Position numbers and translations under genes: made by a program
In this document: positions 37,785 through 64,000 of the stretch, in pieces
Numbering within the stretch: the stretch's first letter is position 1
How the letters are laid out: each line of letters opens with the position of its first letter
The notes under the pieces: model-generated
Database searches by the model: none
Told to the model about the DNA's origin: nothing
What the model saw: only the letters and a program-made list of their open reading frames with translations
From: Pseudomonadota bacterium
Lineage (GTDB): Bacteria; Desulfobacterota; Desulfobulbia; Desulfobulbales; JAHJIY01
Assembly: GCA_018823175.1 (NCBI GenBank)
Contig: JAHJIY010000065.1
Span: 1 to 64,000, forward strand
Direction of reading: 5' to 3'
DNA length: 64,000 nucleotides

Positions 37785-38417
37785 ATGATGAATAAGGATA
37801 ATGGGCCGGGCCTGGAACCGGAGGCGATTGCGCGGGCGGTTGATGTTTTGCGGCGGGGGGGGGTGGTTGCGTTCCCCACTGAGACATACTACGGTCTGGC
37901 CGTTGATCCTTTTAACCAAAAAGCTCTGGAGCGTTTGTTTGCCGTCAAGCAGCGCTCTTTTTCTAAAGCTGTGCTGACTATTATTGATCACCCGGATCAA
38001 TTGTCTCGCCTGGTTAGAGAAATCCCGCCGGTATTTAATATTCTTATCAGACATTTATGGCCCGGGCCTTTGACCCTGGTTTTTGATGGTTTACCGCAAT
38101 TGCCTTCATTGCTGGTGGCCGACGATAATACCATCGCGATCCGGATTTCATCCCATCCGCTGGCCCGCAGTCTGGTCAGGGCATTTGGCGCTCCGGTCAC
38201 CGCGACTAGTGCCAATCTGGCCGGAGAGCCGGCCGCCATAAATGGGCAGCAGGTTCTGCAGTCATTAGGTTCTGGGGTTGATTTTGTTATAGATGGCGGG
38301 GATACTCCCGGCCTTATTGCTTCTACCATTGTCGGTACCAGGAATGGGCAGTTGAATTTGATTCGGGAGGGGGCCATATCCTTTCAGCAAGTTCTTGATG
38401 TCCTGTCAGCCGGCTGA
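37785..38417 (+). CDS. tsaC: L-threonylcarbamoyladenylate synthase (Sua5/YwlC/YrdC)
   Basis: GGVVAFPTETYYGLAVDPFNQKALERLFAVKQRS, LWPGPLTLVF, VTATSANLAGEPAA. Confidence 0.93.
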   Translation: MMNKDNGPGLEPEAIARAVDVLRRGGVVAFPTETYYGLAVDPFNQKALERLFAVKQRSFSKAVLTIIDHPDQLSRLVREIPPVFNILIRHLWPGPLTLVFDGLPQLPSLLVADDNTIAIRISSHPLARSLVRAFGAPVTATSANLAGEPAAINGQQVLQSLGSGVDFVIDGGDTPGLIASTIVGTRNGQLNLIREGAISFQQVLDVLSAG

Positions 38418-49365: not shown

Positions 49366-51765
49366 ATGGGCAAGACGTTACTCAGTTTTATTGAGGAGCC
49401 GGAAATATTTTTTCTACAGAAGTTTTTTTCAATGCTGGTTGCCTCGGAGCATCAGATAATTCTCCGTAACGATATTCTGCTGTCTTTTCAAGAGTTTATC
49501 GCTAACGAGGGTGAAGGTTTATCTTTGAAGAGCTCCTGGCGCTTTTTGCGAAAGGTGCAGGAAATTATCCATCATAGCGGCGAAAAGCTGATCATGGTCT
49601 ATCGTCATCGGCGGGCCAATTGCCGGATTTATGCCCTGACCGGCAAAGATGCCGAACTTGAGATGCTTTCAATCAGAGAGTTTCTGGTACTCAAAGAGAG
49701 TTTGATCAAACCGGAACTCTCTTTTTCGAATCGGACCATGGAATTGAACCTGGCCCCTTTTTATGATTATGGCCCTAATCTTAAGGACCCGCAGACCATC
49801 GGCAACGGGATCACTCATTTGAACCGTTATATGTCGACTAATCTGGCGCTGCAGCCGGAAAAGTGGAATCGGACCCTTTACGAATTTCTGAAGCTGCATA
49901 ATCTGCATGGCGTCCACCTTTTGCTGGATGGGGAGATGATTAGAGATACCTCGGAGCTGGAATCCGGTCTCGAAGACGCGATGGATTTTCTCGAGCGGTG
50001 TGATTGTGGTGAGGATAGCGAAAGGATTAAGGCTAAACTCCGGACCTTTGGTTTTCTGGATGGATGGGGTGACTCTCTGCCCCGGATCATGGAGACTTTT
50101 CACCTGTTGCAAGATACCCTGGAGCAACCAAATGAGGATACGCTGGAGGAATTTTTGACCCGGATCCCGATGGTTTCCAAGGTGACGATGATTTCCCCCC
50201 ATGGCTGGTTCGGACAGGATAATGTCCTGGGGCGACCGGACACCGGTGGCCAGGTGGTCTATGTTCTTGATCAGGCCCGGGCCATGGAAAAATATCTGAC
50301 CGAGGATTTACGGAAGTCAGGGCTCCTGATCGAACCGAAGATCTTGATTGTTACCCGCCTGATCCCTGAAAACGAGGGGACCAGGTCGGATCAGCGTCTG
50401 GAAAAGGTTTATGGTACTCGTAACGTCTGGATCCTGCGCGTTCCTTTTTTTGATGCGGAAGGGAAGATTATGCCGCAATGGATCTCAAGGTTCCGGGTCT
50501 GGCCTTATCTCGATCAGTTTGCCGTTGACGTGGAAAGGGAGATCAAGGCGGAATTCCAGGGTCGCCCCGACCTGATTATCGGCAACTATTCTGACGGGAA
50601 TCTGGTTGCCACTCAGCTTTCTAAAAGCATGGGCGTAATTCAATGCAATATCGCCCATGCCTTGGAAAAATCCAAGTACCTGTTCAGTGATCTTTACTGG
50701 GACAATTTTGAGGATGAATATCATTTTTCCGTCCAGTTTATGGCCGACTTGATTGCGATGAATCTGGCCAATTTCATTATAAGCAGTACCGGACAGGAGA
50801 TTATCGGCACTGACGAGTCAATTGGTCAGTATGAATCATATCAGTTTTTCACCATGCCCGGTCTGATGCACGTCATTAGCGGGATTAACCTTTTTCATCC
50901 GCGGTTTAACGTGATTCCGCCCGGCGTGAATAATGATGTGTTCTTTCCATATCATCAAGAGAAGAGACGACAATCGCGGCAACAGGTTGCGGAATTGTCC
51001 CGGCTTATTTTTGAGCAGGAAGATGATGATTGCCTTGGCAAGTTGGAAAATCCCCAATTGCCGCCAATTTTTTCCATTGCCCGTCTGGATCGGATAAAAA
51101 ATATTACCGGTTTGGTCGAGGCCTATGGCAAGGACGAAAAACTGCGCAGTCAGGCTAACCTGATGATTATCGCCAGTGTTCTAGATCCTGCCAGGTCTAA
51201 GGACTCGGAGGAGGCTAGTGAGATCGTCAAGATGCACGACTTGATCAAGGAATATAAATTGGCCGGTCATATCCGGTGGATCGGCAGGATTCTTGCCACC
51301 GAGGACACCGGTGAGGTCTACCGGATAATGGCGGAACGGGGCGGTGTTTTTGTGCAGCCCGCTCTTTTTGAGGCCTTTGGTTTGACCATTTTAGAGGCCA
51401 TGCATTCCGGTCTGCCGGTTTTTGCCACCCAATTTGGCGGGCCGCTTGAGATTATTGAGCATAACAAGAGCGGATTTTTAATTAACCCGACCGATCAACT
51501 GGCGATGACCGCCAGAATCAGTGATTTTTTTAACCATTGTGCCGGGGATAAAGAGTACTGGTCCCATTATTCGCAAAAAGGACTGGGGCGGGCGACAACC
51601 TACTTTACCTGGAATCTGCATTGCCAGAAATTGACCATGTTGACCAAGGTTTACGGATTTTGGCGTTATTCCATTTCCTATGAGGCCAAATCCCGTTTGG
51701 CCCAGTACTGTCAGCTTTTGTATAATCTATTCTTCCGGGAGAGGGCGAAGAAGATTAAAAATTAA
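49366..51765 (+). CDS. Sucrose synthase
   Basis: SPHGWFGQDNVLGRPDTGGQVVYVLDQARAME; FTMPGLMHVISGINLFHPRFNVIPPGVN; LFEAFGLTILEAMHSGLPVFAT. Confidence 0.94.
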   Translation: MGKTLLSFIEEPEIFFLQKFFSMLVASEHQIILRNDILLSFQEFIANEGEGLSLKSSWRFLRKVQEIIHHSGEKLIMVYRHRRANCRIYALTGKDAELEMLSIREFLVLKESLIKPELSFSNRTMELNLAPFYDYGPNLKDPQTIGNGITHLNRYMSTNLALQPEKWNRTLYEFLKLHNLHGVHLLLDGEMIRDTSELESGLEDAMDFLERCDCGEDSERIKAKLRTFGFLDGWGDSLPRIMETFHLLQDTLEQPNEDTLEEFLTRIPMVSKVTMISPHGWFGQDNVLGRPDTGGQVVYVLDQARAMEKYLTEDLRKSGLLIEPKILIVTRLIPENEGTRSDQRLEKVYGTRNVWILRVPFFDAEGKIMPQWISRFRVWPYLDQFAVDVEREIKAEFQGRPDLIIGNYSDGNLVATQLSKSMGVIQCNIAHALEKSKYLFSDLYWDNFEDEYHFSVQFMADLIAMNLANFIISSTGQEIIGTDESIGQYESYQFFTMPGLMHVISGINLFHPRFNVIPPGVNNDVFFPYHQEKRRQSRQQVAELSRLIFEQEDDDCLGKLENPQLPPIFSIARLDRIKNITGLVEAYGKDEKLRSQANLMIIASVLDPARSKDSEEASEIVKMHDLIKEYKLAGHIRWIGRILATEDTGEVYRIMAERGGVFVQPALFEAFGLTILEAMHSGLPVFATQFGGPLEIIEHNKSGFLINPTDQLAMTARISDFFNHCAGDKEYWSHYSQKGLGRATTYFTWNLHCQKLTMLTKVYGFWRYSISYEAKSRLAQYCQLLYNLFFRERAKKIKN

Positions 51766-51790
51766 TTTTTCTGGTCTTTATTGGTTGAGG

Positions 51791-52660
51791 ATGGAAAGGA
51801 GGATTGGCTTGATTGTTTCGATCGGAGAGGTGGTGTGGGATATCTTTGCCGACCGGCAGGTACTGGGGGGGGCACCGGTTAATGTGGCCTATCATCTTTG
51901 TTCTATGGGGATGGATGTGGGGGTGATTACCGGGGTCGGTTCTGATCGGCTTGGCGAAGCTGCCCTCGATAAATTAACGGAACTTGGTCTGCCGTTGGCC
52001 GGGGTCCAGCAGAATGATCTGCCGACCGGCCGGGTCAAGATTACGGTTGGTCCCAACCATGAACCGGATTTTGAGATTGTGGCCCCGGCTGCCTGGGATG
52101 ATATCAGACTAGCCCCGGCTTTAGAGTACCTGGATAATCGTCCCTTTGATTTAGTGTTCGGCACCTTGGCCCAGCGGGACGAGCGGAGCCGTCAAACAAT
52201 TCGTGCCTTGTGGGCCAAGGCCGGGAGATGTTTTTACGATGTCAATTTGCGGCCGCTTTTTACGACCAAAGAACTGGTTGTTGATTCTTTAGGTGCCGCC
52301 GATCTGGTCAAGCTCAATGGTGATGAATTGCTGATTGTTGGCCGGTGGCTCAATCTGGATGTTCAGGACAAAAAGAAAGTTGCCAAGGAGCTGATCGTTC
52401 GGTATAACATTTCGGTCGTGGTTGTGACCGAAGGGGTAGCTGGGGCCTGGCTGATGGCCGGGGATGAATATTTTCATGACCGCGGAGAACCGGTGACCGT
52501 AGCCGATACGGTGGGCGCCGGGGATTCTTTTTTTGCGGCTCTTCTTTATGGCTATATAAACCATTTCCCTTGGCCTGATAATTTGACCAGGGCCAATCGG
52601 CGGGGAGGTTATGTCGCTTCCCAGCCTGGCGCTACGCCGTCCATGCCTGAAAATATTTAA
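51791..52660 (+). CDS. PfkB family carbohydrate kinase (fructokinase-like)
   Basis: SIGEVVWDIFADRQVLGGAPVNVAYHL; DTVGAGDSFFAALLYG; start moved from 51680 to ATG 51791. Confidence 0.88.
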   Translation: MERRIGLIVSIGEVVWDIFADRQVLGGAPVNVAYHLCSMGMDVGVITGVGSDRLGEAALDKLTELGLPLAGVQQNDLPTGRVKITVGPNHEPDFEIVAPAAWDDIRLAPALEYLDNRPFDLVFGTLAQRDERSRQTIRALWAKAGRCFYDVNLRPLFTTKELVVDSLGAADLVKLNGDELLIVGRWLNLDVQDKKKVAKELIVRYNISVVVVTEGVAGAWLMAGDEYFHDRGEPVTVADTVGAGDSFFAALLYGYINHFPWPDNLTRANRRGGYVASQPGATPSMPENI

Positions 52661-57569: not shown

Positions 57570-60110
57570 TTATCTATTTAATTCCCGCAGACACTTCCTG
57601 GTCGCTTCGGCCAATTCTCTGGCGCTGGCAAACCTGCGGGATTTAGCCTTTGACATGAGTTTGTGGACAATGTCGATGCAACAGGGCTCTATGCCTGGGT
57701 CAATTTCCGGCAAAGGGGTATAGGAAGCGGTGGCAATGGTGTGCATCAGGGTGGCGATATTGTCGTTCTGAAAAGGTTTTTTACCGCTTAGCAGTTCGTA
57801 AAAGACAATGCCCAATGAGAACAGGTCGGACCGACCATCAACTCTCAGGCCTGCAACCTGTTCCGGTGACATATAGTTGGGGGTGCCGAGGACGACCCCG
57901 GTTTGGGTTTTGGATGAGGTGAGTAAACGGGCGATTCCGAAATCCGCCACTTTGATATGGCCATCTTCCAGCATGACAATATTGGCTGGTTTTATGTCAC
58001 GATGGACAACGTTGTTTTTGTGGGCATAATCCAGCGCGTCCGCTACTTCGGTTATGATCTGCAGTACCTTGGGGACCGGCAGCAGGTTGCCGAACCGGCA
58101 ATAGGGGGTAAGGTCGGAGCCGCTGAGCAGTTCCATCGCCATATAGGTCATGTCAAGATCTTCGTCGATATCGTAGATTGTGACGATGTTTGGGTGGTTT
58201 AATTTGCCGGCCGCCTCCGCCTCACGGAAGAACCTTTCCCTCACCTCGGCCAGATCTTCCGGGTCAACTTCTTCGTAGCGCAGGGTTTTGATCGCCACCG
58301 AGCGATTTATTTTAGGGTCGCGGCCCAGATAGACGGTGCCGATGGCTCCCTGGCCCAGCTCTCTGATTATCTCGTAGCGACCCAGGGTAGGTTTGATCGT
58401 GCCGCTGGTCATGATCGTCGCGTCACCCGAGGTTCTGGCCAAAGATGGGAGATTGGCGTTGGCCTGCAGCTGTTTGATTTTTTCGGCCGTGTCCTTGAAT
58501 TTACCGTCCCGGATAATGTGCTCGTAGACGGCAACCGCTTTGTTGTGCATTCTTTTTCGTTCGAAATCAAGGCCGAGGTTGTACAAAAGGTCTTTGACCG
58601 CCGGGTCTTTAATCGGGCATTTCATGAATTTTTCAAAGGCCAGATCAAGCATGCCCTGGCTCTGGAAGGTCAGGCCAAGCATTTTATTGGATTCGAGATC
58701 GGCATCGGTATGCAGGGGGTTGAATAACTTGCGATTGATTATGATCAGCAATAGGCCCAATAGCGCCAGCAGGGTAGGGCTAACCGCCTTGAGCCAGATC
58801 CCGGATGAGGTGAAAAGGAAGATGGCGGCGGCCTGCCAGGTGATGATGAAAATAAACAGAATCGTCGAGCCCAGAGATATTTTGACTCGGGGAATAATCA
58901 GGATGATAAATAACGCGAAGAATAAAAGAACAGCCATCTCAAGCATCCTGGCCCATTCGGGGCGATTGATATGGTTGTCGGTCAGGATGTTTTCTAAAGT
59001 TATGGCGGTCAGTTCGATTCCGGTCAAATCCTGGTTGATCGGGGTCTCGTACCTGGGAACCAGCCCCGGCGAGGTCAGACCGATCAGAACTGATTTACCT
59101 TTAAACAGGTCCGCTTTTACTTTGCCATTTAAGACAGCGTGAAACGGGTAAATTGAATAGTTTTTTGGATCAGGATTGAAATCCAGGAGCATTTGGTAAT
59201 TGCAGTCGATTGGTATTTCAAAGGCCGCGGTCTTGATGGTGGTGATCGATTCGTTGCTGTAGAAGCCTTTTATCTTCGATAATTTATCTTTTGAGTTGAT
59301 CAGGGCCATTTGCAGGGCAAGTGAAGGAAAGACCCTTCCATGCAGGGTTATGAAAAGGTTGGCTTTTCGCACTATGCCGTCCCGGGTCGGGATAAAATTA
59401 TTGTGGCCCAGCGTGGTGGCGTTTTCCGCCAGCTGCAGGTAAGGGGGCATGATGCTGGTGGCCTCAATAATTTCGGGCTGGATAGTCGGTAGCGGGTTGG
59501 TTAATTGCAGGACCGGCTTTCTGGCAGGTAAGGTCTCCTTGACATATTCCAGAGAATATTTGTTGAGCCAATCAGGAATTTTTTGGTCGGCCCAACTGGA
59601 GTTGCCGAAATTAAATTGTAAGGGGAGGATGACTACGCCTGATTTTTTGATGGCGTTTCTTAAGCGGAGATCGTTGTCCAGTCTTTTTTCGGAGTCGGCA
59701 AGATTCTTGTTGATCTCGCCAAGAGAATATTTGTTAAGTTTCAGGGATTTTTTGGTGAGATTTTCCTGTAGTCTTTTGATCTCTTGAATTCCGGCATTCA
59801 TTTCCGGCTCGGGAAAAGGAAGGTCAAGGCCGATTGTTTTAGCCCCGGCTTTGGACAAAAGGTCGATCATCTCGGCAATTTTATCCCTGGACCATGGCCA
59901 GCTGCCGAGCCGGTTGATGCTGTCGCTGTCGATGGCGATCAGGACGACCTGGCTGCGGCTTTCCCTTTGCCGTATGAGGGTCATCAGGTCAAAGGCTTTG
60001 TTCTCAATGGTTCGGGGGAGTGATGCTTCAAATAACACTCCCGTTCCTATGAGCAGGGTTAACAGGGTACAAAGGAACCAGTTGGAAGTGAATAGTGATT
60101 TAAGGCGCAT
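57570..60110 (-). CDS. CHASE2 sensor domain Ser/Thr protein kinase
   Basis: CHASE2-like VVLIAIDSDSINRLGSWPWSRDKIAEMIDLL; kinase GQGAIGTVYLGRDPKINRSVAIKTL, VVHRDIKPANIVM, DFGIAR, GTPNYMSPEQ. Confidence 0.93.
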   Translation of the reverse strand: MRLKSLFTSNWFLCTLLTLLIGTGVLFEASLPRTIENKAFDLMTLIRQRESRSQVVLIAIDSDSINRLGSWPWSRDKIAEMIDLLSKAGAKTIGLDLPFPEPEMNAGIQEIKRLQENLTKKSLKLNKYSLGEINKNLADSEKRLDNDLRLRNAIKKSGVVILPLQFNFGNSSWADQKIPDWLNKYSLEYVKETLPARKPVLQLTNPLPTIQPEIIEATSIMPPYLQLAENATTLGHNNFIPTRDGIVRKANLFITLHGRVFPSLALQMALINSKDKLSKIKGFYSNESITTIKTAAFEIPIDCNYQMLLDFNPDPKNYSIYPFHAVLNGKVKADLFKGKSVLIGLTSPGLVPRYETPINQDLTGIELTAITLENILTDNHINRPEWARMLEMAVLLFFALFIILIIPRVKISLGSTILFIFIITWQAAAIFLFTSSGIWLKAVSPTLLALLGLLLIIINRKLFNPLHTDADLESNKMLGLTFQSQGMLDLAFEKFMKCPIKDPAVKDLLYNLGLDFERKRMHNKAVAVYEHIIRDGKFKDTAEKIKQLQANANLPSLARTSGDATIMTSGTIKPTLGRYEIIRELGQGAIGTVYLGRDPKINRSVAIKTLRYEEVDPEDLAEVRERFFREAEAAGKLNHPNIVTIYDIDEDLDMTYMAMELLSGSDLTPYCRFGNLLPVPKVLQIITEVADALDYAHKNNVVHRDIKPANIVMLEDGHIKVADFGIARLLTSSKTQTGVVLGTPNYMSPEQVAGLRVDGRSDLFSLGIVFYELLSGKKPFQNDNIATLMHTIATASYTPLPEIDPGIEPCCIDIVHKLMSKAKSRRFASARELAEATRKCLRELNR

Positions 60111-60436: not shown

Positions 60437-61869
60437 TCAGGAGGTCAGAAACTGGGCCGGTTGAATGCCGTAATGGGCCGGATGGATACTCTCTTCAATA
60501 TTTCTCAGAAATGCCCCGGTTTTCGGATCGCAGTCCGACAGGTCGATTTCTTCAGCTTTGGTGAAGCCGCCATTTCTTTCATCCCAGACCAGTTTTATTA
60601 AACGGGGCCGGTCCAGGGCCTCGGTGGAAGGTTTGTCCGAGACCAGACCGATTTCTTCGGTGTCGAGTTTGAGCAGGGTACCGACCGGATATATTCCCAG
60701 CATGTTGATGAATATCTTAAGGGCGATTGGGTCAAAGTCGGTGCCGGATCCTTGGAGCATCAGACCCAAGGCTCGGTCCGGGCTAAGTCCCTCCGGTCGG
60801 TAAACCCGGGCTGAAGTCAGGGCATCGTAAACATCGGCGATTGCCAGGATCCTTCCGAACAGGGTCAGCGGTTTTTTCCAGCCGAGGTCCGGATAACCGG
60901 TAAGGTTATACTTTAGGTGGTGCTCGAATGGGGCCATGATTATTTTGGCTTTCCGTTCTCTGGTGGCCCTTAACTTGGTGATCAGACGCACGCTGTTAAA
61001 GGGATGCCATTTGATTTTTGAAAATTCGTTATCATTTAGTTTTCCCGGTTTGTTCAGAATGTTCGGCGGGACAAGAATCTTGCCGAGATCGTGGAATAGG
61101 CCGCATACGCCAAGGCTTTCCAGTGATTTTTTTGATAGACCGATCTGTTTGCCCAGATACATCGAAAGGATGGCGACGTTCACTGAGTGGGTGAAGGTGT
61201 AGTCATCATAAACTTTGAGGGTGCTTGCCGCTAAAAGGACAGGTTTGTCCTGCAACATTACTTCTTCTACCATATCCTGGATTACCCGGACCGCTTTTCT
61301 GATTCCGGCCCGGTTTGACAGGGAGATTTTCTGGGCTACTTCATGCATGGAGGTTAAGGCGTAGGAGTAAATGCGCCGGGCCGATCTTTTCTTGTTCGGA
61401 GTGGAAGATGGCGCGATTGCGCCGACTTTGTTTTGGGTGCTGATTTCTGGTTCCCCGGGTTCAATGCCGGTTCCGATTCCCGATCCTTCGGTTCCACTGC
61501 CGGTGCCACCGGACCCGATTCCTGATCCTCCGGTTCCACTGCCGGTGCCGCCGGTCCCGGTTCCCGATCCTCCGGTTCCTCTGCCGGTGCCACCGATTCC
61601 GGTTCCTGATCCTCCGGTTCCACTGCCGGTGCCACCGGACCCGATTCCTGATCCTCCGGTTCCACTGCCGGTGCCGCCGGTCCCGGTTCCTGGTCTTCCG
61701 GTTCCACTGCCTGTGCCACCGGTTCCGATCCCCGGTCCTTCAGTTCCAACGCCTGTGCCGCCGGTTCCTGCCCCGGGGATGCCGGGAAACCCAATGGAAG
61801 GAGATACTGTTTGTTGAGTTGATGATTTATCTTCGGCATCCAGTTCGGTCAGAAAGTCAACCGGACTCC
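60437..61869 (-). CDS. HD-GYP domain protein, C-terminal part of an apparently frameshifted gene (with Gly/Thr repeat linker)
   Basis: [38 protein letters not shown]; frame open upstream of the called ATG (61348) through the 42-bp repeats to the G8 tract with no start codon seen. Confidence 0.85.
61470..61775 (-). repeat. Tandem array, about 42-bp unit, coding for ([14 protein letters not shown])n
   Basis: Repeated (c/t)cctgatcctccggttccactgccggtgccgccggtcccggtt on + strand. Confidence 0.85.
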
Positions 61870-62616
61870 CCCCCCAATTATATTGGGGCCTGATTGTGAT
61901 GTGCCGCCTCGAACTGAATAACCTGAACCAGATCCTTTGTTTTTCCCCTTTTGGGTATCGTCATCAAAATCCGGCAGAAAGTCTATTGGGGCATTTCCTT
62001 CTCCTCCTCCCCCCATGAACGGGCCGGATTTGCCCTCTGATGATATGTCTGAAGTCTTGTTGCCGGCTGGCTGGTTACTTAGGGCGGGGGTGTCGGCGCT
62101 GGGTTCAAGTCCGGTGAAAAAATTCATAAATCCGGCGGATTCCGGTTGGACAATGGAAACCCATTGCAGATGGAATTTGGCATCTTCAATTTTCAGAACC
62201 AGCCATTCTTGCGGATCTTTTTGTTCGCCGGCCATGTTTAGCAGGCGGGCAAAGGCAAGGATTTGTTCGGCGGTGGCGTTTTTGATTGAGGCATAAAAAC
62301 GTATGCCGAGCAGTTCTCGTTTATCGAAGTAATCCAGCAAATTTTCAACCAGTAGTGACGTTTCTTTGCGGAAAGGTAGTTTCTCTTCGCAGACGTAAAA
62401 TCTGCCGCTGGCGATCTGGATGGTAATATACTCGTCTTCTCCCATCAGTCGGATGGAGATATGGAGAAATTTTTTTACAGACTCCAGGACCAGACGGTTG
62501 TTATCCCGGTGTATTTTTATGGCCTGCAACAGGCTGTTGATTGAGGCGAGAAGTTGCTCTGCCAAGGTCGGCTCTGAAGAGAGCAGGGAATGTTTAAGTC
62601 CTTTGTTGTCGGTCAT
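61849..62616 (-). CDS. N-terminal sensor-like part of the same gene (ends prematurely after G8 tract)
   Basis: [64 protein letters not shown]; reads into SGPNIIGGG at G8 then VRLTF*. Confidence 0.8.
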
Positions 62617-62622
62617 CTTTAT

Positions 62623-64000
62623 TTACCTGATATTCTTGCAGGATGCGCGGATATGAGGAAAAGGGCTTTTGGCGGCTTTGCGTAAAATCAGCTGACTTCC
62701 CCTCGAGTTGAGTACGGCAAGGGCTTCGGCTGCGCCTTGTCGGTGAGCGGCGGTGCCTGATCCGAACATGAAATTCCAGGGTTGACTCAATAATATATTT
62801 TCCAAAAAAGGCAGCATACTGTCGGAACAGCAACCTCCTAAAGCCTGGTAACAGGCAACTATGTGGTCGTTGCCCAGTTCGCCATACCGTTGTTTTTCGA
62901 GGTATTCCCGGATGGTCAAGGCAACGCTGTCGGAGCGTTCCTTCCCCAGAAAAAAAAGCACATCTTTGCGGATGGTACTATTGCTGTCATTTACCAGATG
63001 GAATAACTTTTTGAAGTCAAATTCCTTTCTGATGGTCAGTGCGCTTAGCGAGGCCAGGCGTACTTTATCGTTGGTATGATGTGCTCCTTTCTCAAGGAGA
63101 ATATTGGTGGCGCTTGTCGTATCTATCCCGTCCAGGATTTTGATCAGTCGAAGAAGAAGATCTTCTTCCGGTCTTTCTTCCAGCATTTTTTTCAGATAAT
63201 TCAGGTCATTTTTGACGAAGGAGGCGATCACATCAACCAAGACTTGTCGGGCCGGGCCGGAAGGGATCTGGGAAAACATGGGGGCCAGTGATTCTCCGGC
63301 CTTGGGAGGCAGGAAGCGAATTACTTGCGAGAAGATCTTGAGCTTCTTTGATTCAAAGGAGCTGAGATCTGCAAATACCGGGAGCAAAACTTCCAGGATT
63401 TCCGGTTCGGATATTTCGTCAAAATAATCATTCAGGAGTGGTTTAGCCCAGTCTTTTGCGCATTGGTTGCGGAATTCCGAGATTTTGGTCAGAAGATCCA
63501 GAGCGGATTGAAATTCCTGAAGATACATGTCGTTGCGGAATTCTTCCTGGAAAAAGCCGAGAATAGTTGCAAAGCTTAATGGGTCCTCTTCTTTGTCCAG
63601 GACGATCATTAAAAGTTCAATAACGTCTGAAGTGTCTTCCTGGTTTTCCTCTTCGTCAACCATGCGTTTCATTTCCCGCTGATCTTGCGGGCTTAAATTC
63701 CATAGGCCGCGATCAAGACTGGGCATGGCAATGCTTACCGCCACATATTGTTCCTGGACGGTAGGGTTGATTCTTTGATTTTCCGGATCAAGTTCTCCGC
63801 CGGAGCGGGTTGCGATATCCGGGCGAACGGTATTGTGGACCGGTCCGAAATCAGGAGTGGAGATTCTGCCGGATCCAGCTCCGGTCTCCATTCCGCCGGT
63901 GCCTCCAGCTCCGGTGCCCAATCCGCCGGTACCGGTGCCGGTGCCTCCAGCTCCGGTGCCCAATCCGCCGGTACCCGTGCCGGTGCCTCCAGCTCCGGTG
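62623..64000 (-). CDS. HEAT-repeat-like protein with Gly/Thr-rich repeat N-terminus (5' end outside window)
   Basis: Helical repeat composition (TNDKVRLASLSALTIRKEFDFKKLFHLVNDSNSTIRKDVLFFLG); frame still open at window edge through GTGAGGTGTGTGGL repeats. Confidence 0.7.
   Translation of the reverse strand, partial: TGAGGTGTGTGGLGTGAGGTGTGTGGLGTGAGGTGGMETGAGSGRISTPDFGPVHNTVRPDIATRSGGELDPENQRINPTVQEQYVAVSIAMPSLDRGLWNLSPQDQREMKRMVDEEENQEDTSDVIELLMIVLDKEEDPLSFATILGFFQEEFRNDMYLQEFQSALDLLTKISEFRNQCAKDWAKPLLNDYFDEISEPEILEVLLPVFADLSSFESKKLKIFSQVIRFLPPKAGESLAPMFSQIPSGPARQVLVDVIASFVKNDLNYLKKMLEERPEEDLLLRLIKILDGIDTTSATNILLEKGAHHTNDKVRLASLSALTIRKEFDFKKLFHLVNDSNSTIRKDVLFFLGKERSDSVALTIREYLEKQRYGELGNDHIVACYQALGGCCSDSMLPFLENILLSQPWNFMFGSGTAAHRQGAAEALAVLNSRGSQLILRKAAKSPFPHIRASCKNIR
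63898..64000 (-). repeat. 42-bp tandem repeats (partial, runs off window)
   Basis: ggtgcctccagctccggtgcccaatccgccggtaccggtgcc repeated about 2.5 times. Confidence 0.9.

Follow-up and report, generated by a model that had tools for sequence, protein, structure and literature searches.

A homopolymeric G8 tract in a glycine-rich linker divides one gene for a HD-GYP domain protein into two reading frames

We analysed a stretch of 64,000 nucleotides (hereafter the window) and found that two of its minus-strand open reading frames (ORFs) are halves of one gene, a conclusion that is strongly supported by comparison with homologous sequences. The 5' half encodes a conserved N-terminal domain, the 3' half a HD-GYP domain, and the frame changes between them at a run of eight Gs. 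The lesion is best explained as a frameshift caused by DNA (replication) slippage in a slip-prone glycine linker, a reading to which we assign a probability of about 0.65.

Results

Direct inspection of the sequence shows a G8 homopolymer at positions 61868-61875 of the minus strand, and it is here that the reading frame changes. The 5' part of the split gene (61849-62616, minus strand) is an ORF of 255 aa, which comprises an N-terminal domain (approximately aa 15-160) and an acidic, glycine-rich tail. Its terminal residues are ..[10 protein letters not shown], and it is closed by a TGA shortly 3' of the tract. A -1 shift inside the G8 enters a frame that is open for 478 codons, up to a stop at 60437-60439, and that includes [14 protein letters not shown], a series of 14-aa repeats and then the HD-GYP ORF. 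The 3' part of the gene (60437-61867, minus strand) thus consists of a linker, the HD-GYP domain and a C-terminal extension. ATG, GTG and TTG are absent from this frame for 174 codons, the first of them being the ATG at 61348 (codon 174), and the only start-like codons before it are two CTGs at codons 6 and 9. The apparent HD-GYP ORF of 303 aa (60437-61348, minus strand) begins at this ATG, before which no Shine-Dalgarno-like sequence was seen. The frames before and after the G8 differ by one, so tract length determines how the rest of the gene is read. A preliminary description of this DNA had reported the tract together with the 5' ORF, the -1 shift into the HD-GYP frame and the lack of a stop or plausible start codon between the tract and 61348; the first of these agrees base for base with what we find, and the other two are borne out.

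To find homologues, we searched 258 genomes of the same order with the N-terminal 172 residues and then with a profile built from them. This yielded 48 strong homologues from 41 of the 258 genomes, a count that includes the window's own. The latter has 257 codons, and two others are truncated at contig ends (G170:C30 and G020:C63), which leaves 45 that can be assessed. All 45 are single open frames, of 483-719 codons, and none is divided into two separate genes. Moreover, each of the 26 complete homologues, read residue by residue, has the layout N-terminal domain, variable linker, HD-GYP domain. The alignment with the relatives also continues 5' of the ATG at 61348, where [12 protein letters not shown] faces ARKxYSYALxSL with an invariant Tyr. 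This conserved block indicates that the ATG is internal rather than the native start. It is on the single ORFs of the homologues and on these conserved residues that the assignment of the two ORFs to one gene is based.

A 3-periodic Markov model that allows for frameshifts and had learned its parameters from the ORFs of this genome likewise describes 60437-62616 as one frameshifted gene (a simple codon-usage model is too weak for this purpose). Although the location had not been supplied, the model puts the -1 shift at a distance of 26 nt from the tract. This is the only shift that it calls in the 64-kb window and one of three in 262 kb; of the remaining two, one falls on an ordinary ATGA overlapping start. 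Its sensitivity is incomplete, as it missed the T8 frameshift at locus L090 described below.

The assignment of the 3' ORF to the HD-GYP family, made before any database search, is confirmed by matches to HD_5 (1.4e-21) and, in a phmmer search against the PDB, to 4mcw (5.8e-24). The motifs FHDLGK, EHH..TGYP and ADVYDA, which contain the HD and GYP signatures and the metal ligands, are present and common to the relatives. In the HD-GYP part, 67 of the 69 columns that are invariant in 13 relatives are retained, the two exceptions being conservative, and this retention is similar to that of other members when they are left out in turn. The 1,430 nt downstream of the lesion contain no further stop or frameshift. 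Judged by its motifs, the domain should hydrolyse cyclic di-GMP. The split gene has the HD motif, the metal-ligand pattern and the GYP motif in common with HD-GYP phosphodiesterases such as PDB 4mcw and 4r8z. Unlike these, it adds an undescribed N-terminal domain through a hypervariable glycine-rich linker and is paired with the gene of a HEAT protein.

The linker is rich in Gly, Thr and Ser and contains a tandem repeat with a 42-nt (14-aa) unit in 7.1 copies (61467-61765, minus strand), in the fused frame as had been proposed. Differences among the copies fall on the third position of the fused frame 64 times, compared to 32 and 34 times on positions 1 and 2. This excess fits translation of the fused frame while the array evolved. 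Two alternative-frame ORFs over the linker, one of 161 aa (61354-61839, minus strand) and one of 148 aa (61371-61817, plus strand), are not genes; they are by-products of the 42-nt repeat, which contains no stops.

The N-terminal domain (62101-62616, minus strand) had been labelled sensor-like. This label finds no backing, as the 172 residues match no family in Pfam or NCBIfam and no PDB structure, and profile searches gave chance-level matches only. The domain is instead an undescribed one that is common to a neighbouring gene: comparison of profiles shows it to be distantly homologous to the N-terminus of a HEAT protein (hhalign E 3.6e-6, probability 87.5%). The HEAT-repeat gene lies immediately upstream (62623-63963, minus strand), recognized by domain match and neighbourhoods, and lacks its 5' end, as the contig breaks off at 64105 within a Gly/Thr repeat that belongs to the HEAT gene itself. 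In all ten neighbourhoods examined, a HEAT-repeat gene directly precedes the HD-GYP gene. Downstream lies a gene for a CHASE2 Ser/Thr protein kinase (57570-60110, minus strand; domain match and neighbourhoods), which occupies this position in the two nearest relatives (G001 and G014) as well. The N-terminal domain is also present at the N-termini of the HEAT genes in L132, L134-L136, L138, L139 and L032, and in the HEAT proteins it precedes a D/E-F-S-x-[LF]-N-like motif similar to PIDFLPDF and PVDFLTEL of the window. At L135 (G020:C63:1-9219), three HEAT and HD-GYP gene pairs follow each other in tandem, which suggests duplication of the module. A structure predicted for the intact homologue L032 from three sequences had a mean pLDDT of 45.6 and was not used.

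G tracts of this length are common in the genome. We counted 73 runs of at least eight Gs in 4.1 Mb, 43-46 of them inside genes (three flagged cases may be counted either way), so that a G8 alone is unremarkable. Only the G8 of the split gene breaks its ORF; about 45 of the 46 coding tracts, including runs of G9 to G11, are in frame, among them a G9 at 37855 and a G8 at 51865 of the window. Several other suspected splits were rejected: at L079 the gene is intact on the other strand, at L111 the tract lies at a gene end, and PfkB (51680-52660) reads in frame through its G8. At L090 (G000:C41, ~81.0-81.9 kb) a different gene is broken, not at its G8 but at a T8. It encodes a membrane 4Fe-4S protein and, compared to its 78%-identical orthologue L141, has a CAG-to-TAG stop and the T8 frameshift. 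On the strength of this comparison L090 is a genuine pseudogene with two lesions, which means that real gene loss occurs in this genome. A G29 run at L130 (G000:C69:63423-63451) and a G15 run at L116 (G000:C87) lie at or near contig ends and are probably poly-G read artefacts.

In the homologous gene of nearly all relatives, the longest G run is three to six. A G8 was found only in G038, whose linkers have long tracts in frame, a G8 in the HD-GYP gene and a G10 in the HEAT gene. The latter gene (L133) has both a G10 and a G7 run, and its G10, in the glycine-rich linker and in frame, represents another slip-prone site. The recurrence of G tracts in the glycine-rich linkers of relatives indicates that glycine codons build slip-prone tracts there. 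A scan of viral contigs for the G8 tract with its flanks gave no match.

Discussion

Given that glycine codons build such tracts, the split is most simply traced to a slip of one base. We propose that the glycine codons of a fast-evolving linker would have produced the G8, and that slipped-strand mispairing at the tract during replication would then have caused the one-base frameshift. The recorded G8 would correspond to an OFF state, in which translation stops a few codons past the tract and yields a 255-aa protein with the N-terminal domain and without the enzyme. The HD-GYP part, for which there is no separate conserved start, would be silent, and the cell would presumably lack the phosphodiesterase. 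Since the 3' part is undecayed, the shift is either recent or repeatedly reversed. That a G8 is short for a contingency locus counts against slippage.

Two outcomes of slippage can be envisaged, and each by itself is rather unlikely. In the first, the gene would be a contingency locus, in which tract length reversibly toggles the HD-GYP phosphodiesterase and the arrangement is kept by selection. The position of the G8 inside the ORF, where a change of one base cuts the protein short ahead of the enzyme, and the intact 3' domain are consistent with this. There are also precedents. Reversible indels in homopolymers are documented in M. tuberculosis (PMC11898584), where, likewise, the homopolymer lies in the coding body and its length sets the frame. 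In Clostridioides difficile, the c-di-GMP phosphodiesterase gene pdcB is phase-variable through site-specific inversion of its promoter (PMC9286219). The same outcome, an on/off c-di-GMP phosphodiesterase, would result here, by slippage within the gene instead of promoter inversion. Unlike in the homopolymer contingency loci, the tract of the split gene, known here from the sequence of one assembly, is not conserved, the longest G run being three to six in most relatives. Moreover, no other gene of the genome is split at a tract of at least eight Gs. We put forward only tentatively that the linker homopolymer is an on/off slippage switch for the phosphodiesterase, within a module of HEAT and HD-GYP genes in whose linkers long in-frame G tracts recur.

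In the second, the same slippage event would have become fixed as a recent, irreversible null on its way to a pseudogene. Such a loss is a live alternative in view of the two-lesion pseudogene on C41, where the gene near 81.4 kb has suffered a nonsense change and the T8 frameshift. Against it stand the conserved residues retained by the split gene and the absence of a second lesion from the 1,430 nt 3' of the tract.

A somewhat more doubtful explanation is that in the cells the tract is in frame and the fused gene intact, the length of eight Gs being a miscall in the consensus of a metagenome-type assembly. Consensus errors often take the form of a one-base difference in homopolymer length, all assessable relatives have the gene intact and it is undecayed here, and the surroundings are rich in repeats, with the contig ending ~2.2 kb away in a related one. 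The preliminary description had listed a homopolymer error among its options. As a systematic error this is disfavoured, since about 45 of the 46 coding tracts of at least eight Gs, up to G11, are in frame, and the few other shifts that the Markov model calls in 262 kb indicate that the assembly is not generally error-prone; a single error at this site has a small but real chance of being the cause. In addition, the G29 in which contig C69 ends has the look of a two-colour Illumina artefact and points to short reads. In two-colour Illumina short-read data, consensus homopolymer errors are rare. Phase variation, a fixed null and an artefact all predict the same assembly.

Programmed -1 ribosomal frameshifting or transcriptional slippage, by which one template would give both the short protein with the N-terminal domain and the full phosphodiesterase, had also been suggested. 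G GGG GGA, in the right frame and followed after a short distance by a stop, could serve as a -1 slippery heptamer. Yet all 45 assessable homologues do without a shift and nearly all relatives lack the tract. Furthermore, the RNA 3' of the tract folds no better than shuffled sequences (z -0.66), and no upstream Shine-Dalgarno-like stimulator was seen in the sequence. We therefore consider recoding highly improbable and reject it. Finally, that the ATG present at 61348 starts a second genuine gene can be dismissed almost with certainty, because it lies within a conserved region and lacks a Shine-Dalgarno-like sequence, the 174 codons of open frame before it continue the 5' half, and none of the 45 assessable relatives has separate genes.

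Replication slippage in the linker therefore remains our preferred origin of the split. A literature search found no paper that joins homopolymer slippage with phase variation of a c-di-GMP phosphodiesterase, and no such report for this lineage. The gene pair affected, encoding a HEAT and a HD-GYP protein with an unnamed domain in common, has the appearance of a small, as yet undescribed module for signalling. Should the frameshift not be real and reversible, the split gene would illustrate clearly how slip-prone DNA, and with it the apparent splitting of genes in metagenome-type assemblies, arises from glycine-rich linkers. If it is both, slippage would provide a second route, besides inversion, to the phase variation of a c-di-GMP phosphodiesterase.
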